The notes beneath the pieces were generated by a model. That model searched no databases. It was given only the letters and a program-made list of their open reading frames with translations, and had not been told where the DNA came from. The position numbers and the translations under genes are program-made. From contig JAFYNR010000056.1 in assembly GCA_017548045.1 (NCBI GenBank), positions 1 through 35,521 on the forward strand: 35,521 bases of DNA, in the 5' to 3' direction. This DNA comes from Clostridia bacterium. Its GTDB lineage: Bacteria; Bacillota; Clostridia; Oscillospirales; Acutalibacteraceae. Below, piece after piece: positions 23,664 through 31,792 of the stretch. Numbering within the stretch: the stretch's first letter is position 1; every line of letters begins with the position of its first letter.

Positions 23664-23724
23664 GAGTGCAAAGTTCAAAGTGGATAAAAAATAATTACGC
23701 ATTACGAATTGCGAATTGCGAATT
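23664..23724. repeat. dispersed intergenic repeat, copy 2
   Basis: Head GAGTGCAAAGTTCAAAGT, an A-rich spacer, then heptamers AATTACG, CATTACG, AATTGCG, AATTGCG and AATT. It fills the whole gap between two convergent genes and reaches the stop codon of the S24 repressor gene. Confidence 0.85.
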
Positions 23725-24271
23725 AAAATTTGCGGCGCAGTTCAATTACCTTGCCCAGAACGGTGACGGGTAATTTTTCGATTTCATCCGCAGAAAAGAG
23801 CATAGGCTCAAATACGGGATTTTCAGGCACGAGCATAAGGCTTGTGCCTTTTTTTATTACCCTTTTTACGGAAACGTCGCTGGGGCCGATTACTACGGCG
23901 GCAATGTCACCGCTTCGCACCTCACTGCGGCGGCTGACAATTACCGTGTCGTCAAGTATGAGGGTAGGCGCCATAGAGCCGTCGTTGATTGTAAGGGCAA
24001 AGTAGTCAACACCCCCCAGCTTTTCTTCGGCGGCATCTGCGCTTATTCTTTCAAAGCCGGGTATGCGGTTTTTATCCGCAGGCTTTTCTATGCCCAGAAG
24101 CACCTCAACCGATACCCCGAACACCTTTGCAAGAAGCTGAAGGCTGTTGCGGTCGGGTGCGGTTCTGCCGTTTTCCCACTGGCTTACGGCGGTCTGATGA
24201 ACACAGCAAAGGTCTGCAAGCTGCTTTTGAGATATCTTATTTTTCAGCCTTAATTCCTTAATTATATTCAT
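23723..24271 (-). CDS. XRE-HTH / S24 peptidase repressor (LexA/cI-like)
   Basis: A 182-residue regulator. Residues 1-58 form a Cro/C1-type HTH (LRLKNKISQKQLADLC, then VHQTAVSQWENGRTAPD). Residues 85-180 are an S24 domain with the Ser in DGSMAPTL (S99) and Lys in SVKRVI (K136), 37 apart exactly as in LexA (S119-K156). The linker has no Ala-Gly or Cys-Gly pair at the usual cleavage distance, so self-cleavage may be weak, use another site, or be absent. ATG 24271 has AAGGAG; longer readings upstream are antisense to the divergent gene. It probably represses its own promoter and the divergent one through the CACTAT/ATAGTG dyads. Housekeeping LexA normally has a winged HTH, so this is not classical LexA. 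Confidence 0.88.
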   Translation of the reverse strand: MNIIKELRLKNKISQKQLADLCCVHQTAVSQWENGRTAPDRNSLQLLAKVFGVSVEVLLGIEKPADKNRIPGFERISADAAEEKLGGVDYFALTINDGSMAPTLILDDTVIVSRRSEVRSGDIAAVVIGPSDVSVKRVIKKGTSLMLVPENPVFEPMLFSADEIEKLPVTVLGKVIELRRKF

Positions 24272-24310
24272 TTGTATTCTCCTTTTGCCCCATATACGGA
24301 TTATATATGT

Positions 24311-24339
24311 ATTATGAGTGAAACTATTGAGAATGTCAA
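24311..24339 (-). promoter_or_regulatory. promoter of the S24 repressor gene
   Basis: Minus-strand TTGACA (24339-24334), 17 bases, CATAAT (24316-24311). The spacer contains the dyad at 24314-24328. Confidence 0.75.
24314..24328. promoter_or_regulatory. operator-like dyad in the S24 repressor promoter
   Basis: ATGAGTGAAACTATT is an imperfect copy of the perfect palindrome AATAGTGTCACTATT found in the divergent promoter (11 of 15 bases equal). It overlaps the -10 of the minus-strand promoter. Confidence 0.5.
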
Positions 24340-24369
24340 GCGGATTTATAAAAATTTTGAAAAAATCCT

Positions 24370-24398
24370 TGACAAACAAACATTTGTTCACTATAATC
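24370..24398 (+). promoter_or_regulatory. consensus promoter of the sigma/XRE-fusion gene
   Basis: TTGACA (24370-24375), 17 bases, TATAAT (24393-24398): a perfect sigma-A match. The spacer includes AAACATTTGTTC (24379-24390), which is close to the Gram-positive LexA (DinR) box GAACN4GTTC. Strong promoters of this sort are usually held down by a repressor. Confidence 0.88.
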
Positions 24399-24414
24399 AA
24401 TAGTGTCACTATTA
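24390..24414. promoter_or_regulatory. overlapping operator-like dyads at the -10 and start site
   Basis: CACTAT (24390-24395), ATAGTG (24401-24406) and CACTAT (24408-24413) form two interlocked inverted repeats, including the perfect palindrome AATAGTGTCACTATT at 24400-24414. They cover the -10 and transcription start, an ideal place for repression. Confidence 0.6.
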
Positions 24415-24430
24415 AAAACAGGAGGCACGA

Positions 24431-25066
24431 ATGAGAAAAAACAAAAAAACATCTGATGTGAGAGAGCAGTTTCCCAGCCGTGAGGAGATAAAGGCGGCTC
24501 AGCTTGCCTGCTGCGGAAGATGCTGCAATCAGTGCGAATCGCCTGCGGAATATGCCTGGCGCAAGCGTGATGTGGATATGGCGCTTCTGCTTGAGAGGGC
24601 CATAAAAAATGAGCTTACCGAAACGGAGCGTGAAACCGTAACCGACCACTGGTTCAACTGCGAAACCGTTTCGGGCATTGCGGAGAAAAGGGGAATAAAT
24701 CCCTCGGCGGTCAACCGTACCCTTGACCGTGCCCGTGAAAAGCTTGAAAGGGTGCTGAGCTATGCGGTGTGCTATCAGCATATTCAGAAAAGCGAAAATA
24801 TTGTTCCTCTTGTGCTGGGCAGGGCAAGGGTTATTGCGGCGGCGAGAAGTGTGCCCGGCGGCACGTCGGGCGACAGAATTACCCGTCTGAGGCAGAGCCA
24901 GAATCTGACCCGTGAAATTCTTGCGCCTGCGCTTGACGTAAGCGTTAAAAGATTGGGTCAGCTTGAAGGGGATGCGGTGCCCGACGGGGATGAGCTTTGC
25001 GCACTGAGTGCATTTTTTCAGGTAACGGCGGATTATATTCTGAAAGGAGAAATAAATGAGCAGTAA
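24431..25066 (+). CDS. sigma-70 region 4-like / XRE-HTH fusion protein of unknown function
   Basis: A 211-residue DNA-binding protein. The N-terminal part has an unusual Cys cluster, CCGRCCNQC (C27, C28, C31, C32, C35), that could hold a metal or respond to redox. Residues 59-112 read as a sigma-70 region 4-type HTH (LTETERETVTDHWFNC, VSGIAEKRGINPSAVNRTLD). Residues 149-205 look like a second, Cro/C1-type HTH (LRQSQNLTREILAPALDVS, VTADYILKGE). No sigma region 2 is present, so it is unlikely to be a complete sigma factor. The gene has a consensus promoter facing the S24 repressor gene and is translationally coupled (ATGAGCAGTAA) to the next gene. Function is unknown; an activator or an adaptor to RNA polymerase is conceivable. 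Confidence 0.75.
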   Translation: MRKNKKTSDVREQFPSREEIKAAQLACCGRCCNQCESPAEYAWRKRDVDMALLLERAIKNELTETERETVTDHWFNCETVSGIAEKRGINPSAVNRTLDRAREKLERVLSYAVCYQHIQKSENIVPLVLGRARVIAAARSVPGGTSGDRITRLRQSQNLTREILAPALDVSVKRLGQLEGDAVPDGDELCALSAFFQVTADYILKGEINEQ

Positions 25067-25307
25067 AACACTCCGTGAATTGGGCGTTGAATATGAGAAG
25101 GCGGCAGAGCAGTTAAAGGAAATAATCGAAAGAAAGCGGAAAAAGTTAAAGGGACTGAAAGACAGCGTGTGCTCCAACGAAGCCTATGAGCTGAAAAGCG
25201 AATTGCATAAGCTTTATGCACAGCATCGGGAAATTCAGGAAATTGCGGAATACCTGAAAAGCTATTATGAACCAAGCTCCCGAACCCGACAGATTTTTGA
25301 TTATTAA
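25056..25307 (+). CDS. small coiled-coil protein, coupled to the sigma/XRE fusion
   Basis: An 83-residue, highly charged protein I do not recognise. Residues 8-70 are almost entirely helical with heptad spacing (YEKAAEQLKEIIERKRKKLK; later ELKSELHKLYAQHREIQEIA), so a coiled coil or helical hairpin is likely. No signal peptide or membrane segment. The start ATG at 25056 overlaps the preceding stop by 11 bases, and AAAGGAG stands eight bases upstream. Coupling suggests a stoichiometric partner of the upstream DNA-binding protein. Confidence 0.75.
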   Translation: MSSKTLRELGVEYEKAAEQLKEIIERKRKKLKGLKDSVCSNEAYELKSELHKLYAQHREIQEIAEYLKSYYEPSSRTRQIFDY

Positions 25308-25376: not shown

Positions 25377-25452
25377 GGACGTTTAGCTCAGCTGGTAGAG
25401 CATTCGCTTGACGTGCGAAGGGTCAGCGGTTCGAGTCCGTTAACGTCCACCA
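25377..25452 (+). tRNA. tRNA-Val (anticodon GAC)
   Basis: A 76-base gene with encoded CCA. The acceptor GGACGTT pairs with AACGTCC, the D arm has AGCTCAGCTGGTAGAGC, the anticodon stem TTCGC/GCGAA holds loop TTGACGT with anticodon GAC, and the T arm has GTTCGAGTC. It reads valine codons GUC and GUU. It is monocistronic, with its own promoter and terminator. Confidence 0.96.
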
Positions 25453-26595: not shown

Positions 26596-28155
26596 ATGAA
26601 AAAGTGTATTATCATCGGCGGCGGTCCCGCAGGACTTACCGCAGGCTATGAATTGCTGAAAAATTCCGATGAATATGAGGTTGTCATTCTTGAAGCAAGC
26701 GATGTGCTGGGCGGCATTTCAAGAACCGTAAAGCACAACGGCAACAGAATGGATATCGGCGGCCACAGATTTTTCTCGAAGGATAAGAGCGTAACGGATT
26801 TCTGGGCAAGCCTTATGCCCACTCAGGGCGCACCCTCCGTTGACGATAAAATTCTGGGCAGGGAAAAGCCTCTTGCAAAAGGCGGTCCCGACCCCGAAAC
26901 CGAGGACAGGGTTATGCTTATCCGCCGCAGGGTATCAAGAATTTTCTACCTTAACAAATTCTTCGATTATCCCATTTCGATGAAGCCTCAGACGTTTATC
27001 AATATGGGCTTGCCACGCACGGTGAAGGCAGGCTTCAGCTACCTTAAATCCACCGTTTCCAAAAAGGAAGAAACCTCACTTGAAAATTTCTATATCAACC
27101 GCTTCGGCAAGGTGCTTTATTCAATGTTTTTTGAGGGCTACACCGAAAAGCTCTGGGGCAGGCATCCCGGTGAAATCTCCGCAGACTGGGGCGCACAGAG
27201 GGTAAAGGGTCTTTCAATCCTTGCGGTTATCAAGGATATGCTTTCAAAGCTTGTTCCCAATAAAAACAGAAAGGTTGAAACCTCACTTATCGAAGAATTC
27301 GTTTACCCCAAATTCGGTCCCGGTCAGCTCTGGGAGGCTGTGGGCGATGAATTCACGGGCATGGGCGGTAAGATTCTTTACGGTCATAAGGTAAAGGATG
27401 TTGAAATTGCAGAGGGTAAGGTTATATCCGTTACCTGCGAAAACGGCGAGAAGCTTTCGGGCGATATCTTTATTTCCTCAATGCCCGTCAAAGATCTTGT
27501 TGCAGGTATGGGCAGTGACGTGCCCGAGGCACCTGCTCAGATTGCAAAGGGTCTGCCTTACAGAGATTTTGTAACCGTTGGTCTGCTTCTCAATAAGCTG
27601 AACCTTAAAAACGAAACCGATATAAAAACTCTGGGCAACATTGTTCCCGACTGCTGGATTTACGTTCAGGATACGGGCGTGAAGCTTGGCAGAATTCAGA
27701 TTTTCAATAACTGGTCGCCCTATCTTGTAAGCGATCCCCTGAATACGGTATGGGTGGGCCTTGAATATTTCTGCGCAGAGGGCGATGCCTTCTGGAATAT
27801 GAGCGAGCAGGAGTGCGTTGATTTTGCCGTTAAGGAGCTTAAATCAATGGGCGTTATCGATGCTGATGCCAGGGTGCTTGACAGCCACCGTGAAAAGGTG
27901 CAGAAGGCATACCCTGCATATTTCGACACCTATGACAGAATGGGTGAGCTTGTTGAATATCTCGACACCTTTGAGAATCTTTACTGCGTAGGCAGAAACG
28001 GTCAGCACAGATACAACAATATGGATCATTCAATGGTAACATCATTCGAAACAGTTTCAAATATTCTCAGCGGCAAAAAGACAAAGGAGAATATATGGAG
28101 CGTAAACACCGAAGCGGAGTATCACGAGGAGAACTCTGATGAAAACAAGAATTAA
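26596..28155 (+). CDS. FAD-dependent oxidoreductase, UDP-galactopyranose mutase/protoporphyrinogen oxidase-like
   Basis: A 519-residue flavoprotein of the COG1232/amine-oxidase-like group. The FAD-binding dinucleotide motif is at the N terminus ([17 protein letters not shown]), followed by LGGISRTV and the GGHRFFSK stretch typical of the UDP-galactopyranose mutase-like branch found in surface-glycan loci. The C-terminal FAD contact is [17 protein letters not shown]. The protein is soluble with no signal peptide. In such loci the enzyme is thought to act on a nucleotide-sugar or lipid-linked sugar; the precise reaction is not established. It opens a three-gene operon whose next two products are polytopic membrane proteins. 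GGGGGGAA precedes ATG 26596. Confidence 0.85.
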
Positions 28156-30178
28156 AAGCATACTGCCCGTGGCGGTTATCTGCCTTGTTGCGGTGCTTAT
28201 TGAGCTTCTGCTTTCAAATTTCACGTGGCTTTCGTATGTGTGGGGCAGGGATGAGGTGACGGATTACGTTCCGTCGGGCTTCACTCAGGAATTTATAAAT
28301 GAAAATGATAACAGCTTTGCTGCTGACGGCATTGATTTTGCCGTGAATTCCGTAAGCTACACGGTTAAAACCGCAGACCCCGAGGGGGAGGATGCCCTGC
28401 TGACGGCGGCATATTACGTTGCGGATGAGGCGAGCACCCAATCAGCCGCCCTTGTACGCAGAGAAAGGATTGCCGCAAGCCCCGATGGGTACCGTGTCAC
28501 ATCCTATGTGAATTCATACGGCAAGGGAAAATATGTTGACGTAACCTTTGAGGATGCGAAAAGTGAATATATCGTAACGGATCTCGTCATAAATCCTTCG
28601 TATGAATGGGGCTTCAATGCTCTGCGCTTTGCCTTCGTTTTTGCACTGCTGATGTTTGTTTATGTGTTCACACGCACAAAGGCAGGGGAGAGCTTTGCAA
28701 AAAAATTCACCTATTCTCAGGCAGGCATAATCGCCGTTGCGGTGTGCGTAATCCCTGCGGTGACGGTGTGGATTATGGGTGCGTCGGGTGAGGACGGCAA
28801 CTGCATTTTCTATCCTCTCGAATACGGTGCGGAGCATTATTCGCCTTACATTCAGCAGTTTGATGCTTTTATGAAGGGTCAGCTTCACCTTGACGTGACG
28901 CCCTCGGCAGAGCTGCTTGCCCTTTCAAATCCTTACAGCCCCGACGAAAGATACGGGCTTGAATTCCTTTATGACAGAGCATTTTTTGACGGTAAATATT
29001 ATTCTTATTTCGGAATTGCGCCCATACTGACGGTGTATTATCCCCTGTATCTGCTGACGGGCGTTCTGCCTGCTGACAGCACGGTAACGGGAATATTCTC
29101 GGTTATCACCGCAATCTTTCTTCCCCTTGCGGTTATTGAATGGGCAAGGCTGAAAAAATACGGCAGCCCTCTGCTTGCGCTTTTCTGCGGTGCGGCGGCA
29201 TATTTTGCAAGCGGTGCAATGATTATTCAAAGGGGCAGAGCACCGTTTTACTACATTGCAAGCCTTGCAGGAACCGCCTTCGTTGCGATTTTTCTTTTCT
29301 TTATTGTCAATGCGGTTCAGTTCAAAAAGACTGCACCAAGGATGATATTCCTTGCACTTTCGGGCGGTGCCTACGCACTTGCGTTTATGTCAAGAATCAA
29401 TTCCGTTCTGCCCGTAACCTTCGGAATAATTGCGTTTATCCTGATTTATCTTGTAAAGAGTATAAAAGAAAAATCACTTCCCAGTTTCTTTAAGGATATG
29501 ACCGCACTGGGCTTGCCTGTTGCGGCGGCATTGGGCTTCACACTGTGGTATAACAACGCCCGTTTCGGAAATCCCTTGCAGTTCGGCACCGCATATCAGC
29601 TTACCGTGGCGGATACCTCATATTACGAATTCTACGGCGGCGGAATCTTCCACACTCTGTTCCATTATTTCATTCAGCCTCTTGAAATAACGGATATGTT
29701 CCCCTTCGTGCAGTTTGAATATTTCAGGTTTGCAGGCTACGGCAGGTCACTTTATATCGACAGCAATTTCGGTATTTTTGCAATACCCTTTATGCTTTCG
29801 CTTTTCCTCAGCCCCGTTATATTCAGAAGCAAAACCACCTCAAGAAACGGCAAAATTATGCTTTCGGCAATGCTTTTGTCGCTGTTTGTCACCGCATACC
29901 TCGATATGTGTATGGGCGGAGTGATTTTTCGCTACACCGCAGACCTTCTGCCTGCGGCGGCGGTTTTGTCGGCGGCGGTTATTTTTGAGGCTTACCGCCT
30001 TGCAAAAGAAAAATACGGCGGAGGAATCGGGAATACGGTATGCAGGGGTGCAGGTATCCTTGCAGGGCTGACGGCGGTTACCGTTTCGGCAGTTGCGGTT
30101 GGTATCAACGGCAATTTTGTTCCCTATGCCCCTGAATTCCACCTTGCTCTCAGAGATTTCTTTGTATTTTGGAGTTGA
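28139..30178 (+). CDS. polytopic membrane protein, probable GT-C-type glycosyltransferase
   Basis: A 679-residue protein with an N-terminal membrane segment (about 8-27), a soluble outer domain (about 30-155), and then about ten further membrane segments from about 160 to the C terminus. The stretch [20 protein letters not shown] between segments is seen in large GT-C-like membrane proteins of Firmicutes. GT-C enzymes use polyprenyl-phosphate sugars to glycosylate glycans outside the membrane. No single catalytic Asp can be named with confidence. It overlaps the flavoprotein gene by 17 bases, with GAGGAG before ATG. The partner flavoprotein may supply an unusual sugar form. Confidence 0.72.
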
Positions 30179-30181
30179 GTT

Positions 30182-31792
30182 ATGTATATTGACGTTCTGA
30201 AACTGAAAAAATTTTTCGCTTATGCTTCGGCAGTGCTTTTTTTCTCCTGTTCCGTGGGTATGGCGATTTACTACATAGCTTATCCCTCGGCGGCATTCTT
30301 CCACGCTGACTGCTCGGATACCATTCTCTGGGCGCAGGCAAGCTATGACAGCGGCACAATGTTCAACCCCGACTTCGGCTATGCGGCAATGCTGCCCTTC
30401 GGCGGCACAACACTGATGCTTCCATTTATCGGAATTTTCGGGGTATCCTTCACCACCCACCGCATAGGAATGATTCTTTTTACCATCATTCTTTTTGTCT
30501 CGGTGCTGTGGCTTTGCGGATGCGTTAAAATGAGCACAACTCTTTCGCTTACCGCAACGGGTACCTTTGCACTTGTGTTGTGCTCAAGCGCAAAGCTCCG
30601 TGAAATTTTCTACGAGCACGTTATTTATTACAGCATCTGCGTGCTCATAATCTGCGTGCTGCTCAGCCTTTTCATCAGATTCACGCAGGCATACAGCAAA
30701 AACGGCATTAAGAAGCTGGTTGCCGTAACCTTTTTCACCGTGATTTTCTCCGCACTTTCAGCCCTTGACGGTATGCAGGTTATTGCAACAGGTGTGCTTC
30801 CCGTGCTTTTTGCGGCGGTTATGGGCATTTTTCTCGATAAGGATAACACCCTGCTTTCAAAGAAAAGCCGTGTTCCAGTTTACTACTGCGTCATCTGCGG
30901 CGTATCGGTGCTTATCGGTCTTGCCCTGCTTTCATTTTTTGCAGACGGAATATATTCGGGCTACGCAGGCGCGTATTCGGGCTATGCCAATATGGATGAA
31001 TGGCTTTCAAATCTTGGTAACTTCCCCGTGCACTGGTTCACCCTTTTCGGCGTTGATGCACATTACGGAATGCCCATTTTTTCGGCAGAGTCAATAGTCA
31101 ACATAATCCGTATGGGCTCTGCGGCGGCGGTTGCACTTGTGCCCGTTATCGCACTTTTCTTCTATAATAAATTCCGCTTCGGTACAAAGGCACTTCTCCT
31201 TGCCCACTTCGGGCTCAGCGGAGTAATAATGTTCGGCTACGTTTTCGGCATACTTTCCGCCGCAAACTGGCGTTTAAGCCCTATGATATGCACGGGTCTG
31301 CTGTGCTGCTTTGCAGTGTTTGCCGAGGTTAAGGGGCATTTTGTTCCGAGGCGTATCTGTGCTCTCGTGCTCTGTCTGCTTGTGCTTCTGAGTGCCGTCA
31401 ACTTCGACACCGTTGTGCAGATGGAGGAAAACGGCATTGAGCAGAATGAAAAATATCTTATCTCACAGCAGCTTAAAGAAAAGGGTCTCACCTACGGCTA
31501 CGCAACCTTCTGGAATTCTCAGGTAATAACCGTGCTTTCGGATTCCGAGGTAAGGGCGGCGAATATCGACGTCAACGAAAACGGAATAGCCCCCTGCCCG
31601 TACCAGGCAAACCTTGAATGGTTTGAGGAGCAGGAGGGGGTTGACGAATATTTCGTTCTGCTTTCATACGGTGAGGAGGAAACCCTTATGAACACAACCG
31701 ACTGGATTTATTTTGAGCTTACGCACAAGGAGAAAATCGACCTTGAGGGCTACACGGTCTACGTGTTCGGTTCAACGGATTTTCTCTATTAA
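30182..31792 (+). CDS. polytopic membrane protein, probable GT-C-like, third gene of the set
   Basis: A 536-residue protein with about eleven hydrophobic segments in residues 10-410 and a soluble C-terminal part (about 420-536). The first outer loop reads FFHADCSDTILWAQASYDSG, with acidic residues where GT-C proteins place their catalytic Asp. I cannot assign a family from sequence alone. It starts three bases after the preceding stop, with TTGGAG upstream, so it is surely co-expressed. The last 21 bases overlap the end of a convergent minus-strand gene. The pairing of two different GT-C-like proteins suggests successive steps in building one surface glycan. Confidence 0.68.
   Translation: MYIDVLKLKKFFAYASAVLFFSCSVGMAIYYIAYPSAAFFHADCSDTILWAQASYDSGTMFNPDFGYAAMLPFGGTTLMLPFIGIFGVSFTTHRIGMILFTIILFVSVLWLCGCVKMSTTLSLTATGTFALVLCSSAKLREIFYEHVIYYSICVLIICVLLSLFIRFTQAYSKNGIKKLVAVTFFTVIFSALSALDGMQVIATGVLPVLFAAVMGIFLDKDNTLLSKKSRVPVYYCVICGVSVLIGLALLSFFADGIYSGYAGAYSGYANMDEWLSNLGNFPVHWFTLFGVDAHYGMPIFSAESIVNIIRMGSAAAVALVPVIALFFYNKFRFGTKALLLAHFGLSGVIMFGYVFGILSAANWRLSPMICTGLLCCFAVFAEVKGHFVPRRICALVLCLLVLLSAVNFDTVVQMEENGIEQNEKYLISQQLKEKGLTYGYATFWNSQVITVLSDSEVRAANIDVNENGIAPCPYQANLEWFEEQEGVDEYFVLLSYGEEETLMNTTDWIYFELTHKEKIDLEGYTVYVFGSTDFLY

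Follow-up and report, generated by a model that had tools for sequence, protein, structure and literature searches.

A divergent repressor and sigma-region-4 fusion locus of Acutalibacteraceae as a candidate switch of a gene transfer agent-like particle system

What does a phage-type regulatory switch control when it stands outside any prophage? The question is raised by a three-gene locus in a stretch of 35,521 nucleotides (contig JAFYNR010000056.1, assembly GCA_017548045.1, from a Clostridia bacterium of the family Acutalibacteraceae); we call this stretch, at its full length, the window. One gene encodes a repressor, and the divergent operon encodes a protein that joins a sigma70 region 4-like helix-turn-helix (HTH) to an XRE-type HTH (the fusion) and a small helical protein (P3). 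We propose that the trio is probably the control switch of a domesticated particle system of the gene transfer agent (GTA) type, resembling FpGTA of Faecalibacterium. The observations behind this proposal are the anatomy of the locus, its conservation, an enrichment of LexA-type boxes, linkage to lysis genes, and co-occurrence with a head gene cluster.

The locus and its control region

The elements of the locus are the following.

23723-24271, minus strand: XRE and S24 repressor, 182 residues; Ser99 and Lys136 kept, Ala-Gly cleavage dipeptide absent
24339-24311, minus strand: repressor promoter, TTGACA-17-CATAAT, 11/12 matches; largely kept in four orthologues
24314-24328, minus strand: operator-like copy AATAGTTTCACTCAT, 12/15 of the main dyad
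24369-24397, plus strand: promoter of the fusion-P3 operon, TTGACA-17-TATAAT, 12/12 matches
24378-24389, plus strand: LexA-type box AAACATTTGTTC, 7/8 matches, in the spacer between -35 and -10; perfect in the orthologues L033-L035
24399-24413, plus strand: perfect 15-bp dyad AATAGTGTCACTATT, predicted to be the likely repressor operator
24431-25066, plus strand: fusion, candidate activator, 211 residues; sigma70 region 4-like HTH (residues 60-105) and XRE HTH (residues 152-203)
25056-25307, plus strand: P3, helical partner, 83 residues; 11-bp overlap with the fusion
25377-25452, plus strand: tRNA-Val(gac), directly after P3

The original prediction had described three genes with facing promoters and dyads, and this arrangement was borne out and is kept in four orthologues; the coupling of the fusion to a helical partner is seen in the overlap of their genes. 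The repressor matches the Pfam families HTH_3 (E 6e-18) and Peptidase_S24 (E 8e-15). Two regions of the fusion match Pfam families at scores just below the cut-offs, residues 60-105 matching Sigma70_r4_2 (E 6e-5, 23 bits; cut-off 25.7) and residues 152-203 matching HTH_3 (E 9e-5, 22.9 bits; cut-off 23). A 22-row profile of the fusion family, compared with PDB, matched sigma factors and XRE proteins in the same two regions, so that the predicted joining of a sigma region 4-like HTH to an XRE HTH holds as a conserved fusion by both kinds of match. The Pfam scan found region 4 and no sigma region 2, indicating that the fusion is not a complete sigma factor of the UviA/TcdR type, and the Pfam and NCBIfam scans found no DnaA-like domain that would join the sigma-like one as in the GafA family. 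P3 matches no Pfam family over the cut-off; its weak, nonsignificant profile matches are to the phage Q-like antiterminator phrog_753 (E 0.005) and to a 62-residue PDB chain, 2bzb (E 0.044).

A 22-protein profile found the fusion at full length (E <1e-40) in 38 of 398 genomes of the family, including all seven sampled in the genus; at a looser limit 386 of the 398 match, mainly through cross-matches of single domains. We compared 41 full-length fusion loci, taken from 37 of the 38 fusion genomes (without G338) and from L033-L036. Excluded from these counts and from the fusion tree were L055 and L098, which duplicate L032 and L051, and the short loci L051, L053, and L054. Upstream of the fusion, 28 of the 41 loci have a perfect GAACN4GTTC (0.09 expected from shuffles), compared with 3 of 422 control genes drawn from the same loci, and 35 have a match of at least 7/8 (3.3 expected; 43 of the 422 controls). 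Two of the three controls with a perfect box are a spurious open reading frame (ORF) inside an apparent coding gene at the window's end and a SpoVAD gene. In the available text of PMC4234289, GAACN4GTTC is the LexA box of B. subtilis, and GAACAAATGTTTG is part of the recA operator of C. difficile. These 13 bases are the reverse complement of CAAACATTTGTTC in the window. Neither the LexA-type box nor the missing cleavage dipeptide of the repressor had figured in the original prediction.

The catalytic Ser and Lys of LexA are 37 residues apart. The same spacing had been claimed for the window repressor, and it was confirmed: Ser99 and Lys136 are 37 residues apart, and both are invariant in 10 aligned repressors. 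The spacing does not, however, imply SOS cleavage. An Ala-Gly dipeptide stands exactly 34 residues before the catalytic Ser in 11 of 12 repressors outside the window clade, and this dipeptide and the residues around it are absent from all five window-clade repressors (the four orthologues are 60-97% identical to that of the window), which retain the Ser and Lys. Because the site is missing, autocleavage of the window-clade repressor appears unlikely, and SOS input through LexA is more likely than through cleavage of the repressor. The twelfth repressor (L133:8803-9393) has, by eye, Ala for the catalytic Ser and Gly-Gly for Ala-Gly, and its gene stands beside a fusion, P3, and only a Hol44 holin; L133 seems to be a second lineage with an apparent loss of autocleavage. 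The S24 repressor lies near only 17 of the 41 fusion loci, and so the conserved core is the fusion with P3 and not the trio that the original prediction had taken as the unit.

Alignment of the window with four orthologues showed that the rightward promoter is invariant, and so are the outer half-sites (AATAG/CTATT) of the dyad, the inner bases of which vary. The perfect dyad is the sole copy at 0-1 mismatch in the whole genome. At up to three mismatches the window holds three matches, two of which are one site read on both strands (0.89 expected), and because 9 of 100 shuffles reach three matches, the weaker copy taken alone is not beyond chance. We rejected a regulon of the repressor in trans in this genome, where the perfect operator occurs once and looser matches number 4, versus 19 with a reversed-pattern control.

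A separate head cluster and its co-occurrence with the fusion and P3

A search for terminases pointed to contig C2 of the same genome (G000), which carries TerS, TerL, portal, a conserved 286-residue protein, a virion structural protein, and a major head protein, together with three conserved genes without a family. Comparison with PHROGs identified the major head protein (E 2e-96), portal (E 3e-131), TerL (E 7e-51), and TerS (E 1e-13); no tail gene was recognized in this cluster. The gene order is common to 11 genomes, in some of which single genes were uncalled. A phage-like head and packaging cluster in the same genome as the switch is one mark of a GTA. Another is vertical rather than mobile inheritance, to which the constraint on the cluster (omega 0.03-0.28) and its usually single copy point; between the window species and G145, omega for the head genes is 0.03-0.15. 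Replication and integration genes would be missing beside a GTA cluster; six flanking genes scanned in G000, integrases not being searched for systematically, gave GH92, YdjC, HTH-lipase-like, tRNA synthetase-like, and carboxylase-like proteins and one without a match. The terminase matches themselves mean little alone, since they occurred in all 38 fusion genomes but also in 11 of 14 controls, and a capsid search took their place. A 111-residue protein before TerL in L206, first taken for a sigma region 4 protein, is an XRE protein.

Relatives of the capsid occur in 229 of the 398 family genomes (two matches only in G217, G284, and G390) and in 82 of the 135 sampled genera. An order-level sample gave capsid relatives in 15 of 147 genomes, eight of them from four other families and with a similar gene order. 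Phage records gave eight capsid matches, five of which (unverified fecal scaffolds) exceed 50% identity, and IMG/VR, searched with an exact-pattern prefilter, gave no confirmed relative. One of these five scaffolds, filed as "Bacteriophage sp." (L186, GenBank MT835508.1), carries the head cluster together with genes that would, by their sizes, make up a complete spc ribosomal operon; it is therefore probably bacterial chromosome.

The capsid was found in 37 of the 38 fusion genomes and in 192 of the 360 others (p 6e-9), the exception, G140, being 56% complete; counted by genus, the figures are 11/11 and 71/124 (p 0.003). For P3, a single-sequence search found the capsid in all 25 genomes with P3 and in 87 of 175 without. 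A P3 profile gave 78 of 85 versus 34 of 115 (p 4e-20), or 58 of 65 versus 34 of 115 when the 20 training genomes were left out, and by genus 59 of 64 versus 20 of 71; second P3 matches in G123 and G133 were dropped from this count. Because at least 41 of the 85 P3 matches have a sigma region 4 match within 300 bp on the same strand, we take P3 and the sigma region 4 protein, by their gene positions, to be a two-gene module of which the XRE fusion is one form.

The two parts are sometimes close together. In G183 (L180), two small ORFs come after the head cluster, and beyond them lie an XRE gene, which is divergent and has no S24, and P3 with an overlapping sigma region 4 gene; no lysis gene was recognized between the head cluster and the P3-sigma region 4 pair. 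In G015, from the window's genus, TerS and the start of the fusion are separated by 6.2 kb of a single contig; in G006, P3 is on the opposite strand to the head cluster, past its far end. The best P3 match and the capsid are, by eye, at most 35 kb apart in at least seven genomes, and the same is true of G133 through its second P3 match.

Upstream of TerS, at L166:18648-18700 and other loci, we observed a TAxGGKTGARAG box about 30-70 bp before the gene, often followed by a small hairpin. Chosen by eye in the genus, the box reached a combined p of 5e-6 when tried on 14 held-out sequences (p <0.05 in 6 of them); a Gibbs motif search before TerS barely exceeded its control (14.0 vs 12.0-13.0). It is possibly an activator or leader element, and we regard it as a lead only.

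Lysis genes, known systems, and a proposed mechanism

Genes outside the window were called with a home-made greedy ORF picker, so that their starts are approximate and some genes are missed, and downstream families were assigned with small local profiles, mostly seeded by Pfam-checked members; other XRE genes, too, match the A3 profile at E 1e-4. Downstream of the fusion, 20 of the 41 loci have a peptidoglycan hydrolase and/or a holin, the hydrolases being Amidase_3, M23, NlpC/P60-like, or GH25 and the holins of SPP1 or Hol44 type. L036 and L128 share the order fusion, P3, a coiled-coil protein, Amidase_3, a protein of about 70 residues, an SPP1-type holin (by Pfam in L128, by likeness in L036), and tRNA-Val. 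Four of the seven genomes of the genus have one SPP1-type holin each, all within 2.5 kb of the fusion. Six more of the 41 loci have fibre-like or unknown large proteins (L046, L136, L139, and L144, all of one genus; L132; and L044, at a contig end). The large downstream proteins are varied (M14 peptidase, coiled coil, fibre-like). Ten were compared with PHROGs: that of L136 matched a tail fibre (E 3e-19), that of L132 a virion Ig-domain protein (E 2e-25), and four had no match at all. Proteins in the hydrolase position of L054 (409-1074) and L141 (8241-8963) carry dockerin domains, hinting at cellulosome-type attachment; the NlpC label that the L141 protein received from the local profiles is not confirmed by Pfam, where the match is to a dockerin.

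Our first idea was that the locus is a stand-alone SOS-inducible cassette for lysis and release, like those of bacteriocins or type 10 secretion, with the large variable protein as its cargo; the head cluster would then be a separate resident, related to it by common ancestry alone. This idea fits the 20 fusion operons that continue into genes for a hydrolase and/or a holin, accompanied by large proteins of varied kinds, and it fits clostridial Bcn5 clusters, in which, by the available text of PMC9527704, a bacteriocin is accompanied by a sigma factor, a holin, and an amidase. We demoted it to a rival on the evidence of the head cluster and of P3: by genus P3 tracks the capsid, the P3-sigma region 4 pair of G183 adjoins a head cluster with no lysis gene recognized between them, and the retention of the switch by the window clade after lysis-gene loss would be left unexplained. 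As an account of the whole system we now consider it unlikely, and favor the control of a GTA-like system.

Hydrolase and holin genes are absent beside the switch in the window clade. In the fusion tree this clade lies within a supported group (98/95) that contains lysis-bearing loci; the split between the window and the lysis-bearing loci is weak (85/47), and the amidase-bearing L131 falls on the window's side. The simplest reading is that the window clade lost its lysis genes. Their relocation within G000 was considered and rejected: the extra Amidase_3 there, on contig C51, is apparently in a separate prophage, and the genome has no SPP1-type holin. By ORF order, C51 (L164) resembles a separate ordinary prophage with its own Amidase_3.

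For the switch of a GTA-like system we propose the following mechanism, in which LexA control, head-cluster activation, the roles of the domains, particle production, and the packaging and transfer of DNA are what we infer. LexA and, in some species, a local XRE/S24 repressor would jointly hold off one strong promoter. DNA damage would remove LexA, the repressor would be lifted, and the operon would then make the fusion and P3; in about half of the compared loci it would run on into a large variable protein, a peptidoglycan hydrolase, and/or a holin. As activators of late genes, the fusion and P3 would turn on, in trans, the separate, usually single-copy head cluster (on C2 here), with the sigma region 4-like domain contacting RNA polymerase, the XRE domain targeting DNA, and P3 serving as a partner or processivity factor. 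The window clade would have lost the adjacent lysis genes and the repressor cleavage site and kept the LexA-type box and, under purifying selection, the switch and the head cluster.

A broader proposal, which we put forward tentatively as possible rather than probable, is that P3 and the sigma region 4 protein (XRE-fused in 38 of 398 genomes) together form a master activator dedicated to a Gram-positive, family-wide GTA; this activator would be convergent with GafY/GafZ and, in its fused form, LexA-gated. The window lineage would then be a version without fibre and lysis genes of its own, whose packaged DNA may be kept inside the cell and used there or released by another route.

Several observations weigh against these proposals. 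Seven P3 genomes have no detected capsid and 34 capsid genomes no detected P3; the co-occurrence was corrected for relatedness only through the genus counts, and many genomes are incomplete. No recognized hydrolase, holin, or fibre-like gene was found at 15 of the 41 fusion loci. Of the 10 large downstream proteins scanned, most had no match to a phage family of structural type in PHROGs, so that for most of them "fibre" is a positional label. Release is unexplained in the window species, as neither G000 nor G145 has an SPP1-type holin (other holin families were not searched for there). The window's LexA-type box is a 7/8 match, and such matches are at chance level window-wide (15 found vs 14.45 expected); the case for it therefore lies in its position in the promoter spacer and in the perfect copies in L033-L035. 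Among 10 distinct P3-sigma region 4 loci without XRE, two have a perfect box, one a 7/8 match, and seven neither, and the G183 trio has no box, perfect or 7/8. Upstream of TerS a perfect box was found in none of 21 cases and a 7/8 match in one, the repressor operator is absent there, and no DNA motif common to the switch and the head cluster was proven.

Several known systems share parts of this design. PBSX of Bacillus subtilis has the Xre repressor, the sigma-like factor Xpf, and the lysis genes XhlA, XhlB, and XlyA. The likeness lies in the repressor, the sigma-like late activator, and control by DNA damage, and in our relatives' loci extends to amidase and SPP1-type holin genes with a small transmembrane or coiled-coil gene between them. 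PBSX differs in that here no virion genes are contiguous with the switch, the head cluster lies elsewhere, and no tail gene is recognized in it.

The available text of PMC12946183 describes FpGTA as two unlinked parts, operon I with TerS-TerL-portal-scaffold-capsid and operon II with baseplate, fibre, receptor-binding, holin, and endolysin genes, and as shown to form particles with about 9 kb of DNA. By gene lists only, operon I resembles the C2 cluster, and operon II the trio locus of relatives with lysis genes; the window clade has no operon II-like genes at the switch. That text names no regulator of FpGTA, and the term "sigma factor" is absent from it.

In the available parts of PMC11150451 and PMC9638019, Caulobacter RogA is a repressor over an activator pair, GafY-GafZ, that acts in trans on the GTA cluster; GafZ has a sigma-factor-like HTH, and Rhodobacter GafA unites in one protein two DNA-binding domains whose counterpart is split into two genes elsewhere. 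By these descriptions our system is close in logic, as sigma region 4 and XRE are likewise fused or split here. It differs in having no DnaA-like domain in the fusion, a small helical partner in P3, and a LexA-type box in the promoter, and the IHF and omega partners of the Gaf systems described in those parts have no known counterparts here.

Clostridial Bcn5 is alike in combining a sigma-type regulator (UviA) with a holin (UviB) and an amidase around a released protein, and differs in that UviA is described, in the available text of PMC9527704, as a sigma factor, whereas only region 4 was found here, together with a link to a capsid cluster. A Listeria CI/Cro-like locus controlling mtz/tim is likewise a conserved chromosomal phage-type switch, one that acts on the cell wall; its effectors are different, and the available text of PMC8235301 mentions no sigma region 4 protein or capsid link.

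A 2026 report describes GTA-like packaging as a prominent feature of gut Oscillospiraceae and Ruminococcaceae (PMC12946183, available text). If our proposal is right, the locus supplies a switch for such packaging and ties gene transfer in the gut to DNA damage through LexA, the fusion and P3 are two handles with which particle production could be turned on or off, and the candidate range widens, by the capsid search, to 82 of the 135 sampled genera of one family.

Chromosomal setting and neighboring genes

The trio comes after M23 and S41 peptidase genes in the window and in L032-L035, and L041 also keeps the place beside them. In the window ftsX lies upstream of the M23 and S41 genes and is preceded by a gene that we take to be ftsE; tRNA-Val(gac) follows P3 in the window and in L032-L034. 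Nei-Gojobori omega was 0.03-0.24 for the three genes where dS was unsaturated (for P3, two comparisons), and FtsX and S41 gave similar values; for the repressor it was 0.03-0.21 against three orthologues, with dS saturated for the fourth. The shared neighbors, together with omega values like those of FtsX and S41, indicate that the locus is an old chromosomal one under selection.

These data bear on the possibility that in the window clade the switch serves no particle and was repurposed for host genes, such as the adjacent envelope genes ftsX-M23-S41. The clade has neither the lysis genes nor the cleavage site, yet omega is low wherever it is measurable, and M23-S41 are still the neighbors in the window, the four orthologues, and L041. 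The head cluster, however, is present and constrained in the same genomes, and the repressor operator is unique to the locus, and we find such repurposing very doubtful.

Ordinary immunity regions of prophages would be the simplest source of such genes. The repressor matches general phage repressor families in PHROGs, the fusion has a Cro-like HTH, and the neighboring lysis genes were lost, as might be expected if the locus were the decaying remnant of such a region. Against this stand the purifying selection, the chromosomal place shared with four orthologues, the presence of the fusion in 7/7 sampled genus genomes, and the lack of any relative of it in the phage, plasmid, and IMG/VR searches described below, which mainly reach close relatives, and we regard a remnant as scarcely credible; an intact ordinary prophage was rejected on the same evidence. 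No relative of the fusion was found in IMG/VR or in phage or plasmid collections, and none of P3 in IMG/VR, in searches that mainly reach close relatives and did not include the repressor. The finding that the original prediction had named beforehand as a refutation, homologues sitting in prophages as ordinary immunity regions, thus did not turn up in these collections. Its description of the locus as phage-switch logic without any phage genes stands insofar as the locus lies outside any prophage, but is true locally only, as relatives carry a hydrolase/holin operon and a separate head cluster.

Farther along the window, at 28139-30178 and 30182-31792, lie genes for adjacent proteins of 679 and 536 residues, which match no Pfam family over the cut-off and no NCBIfam family.

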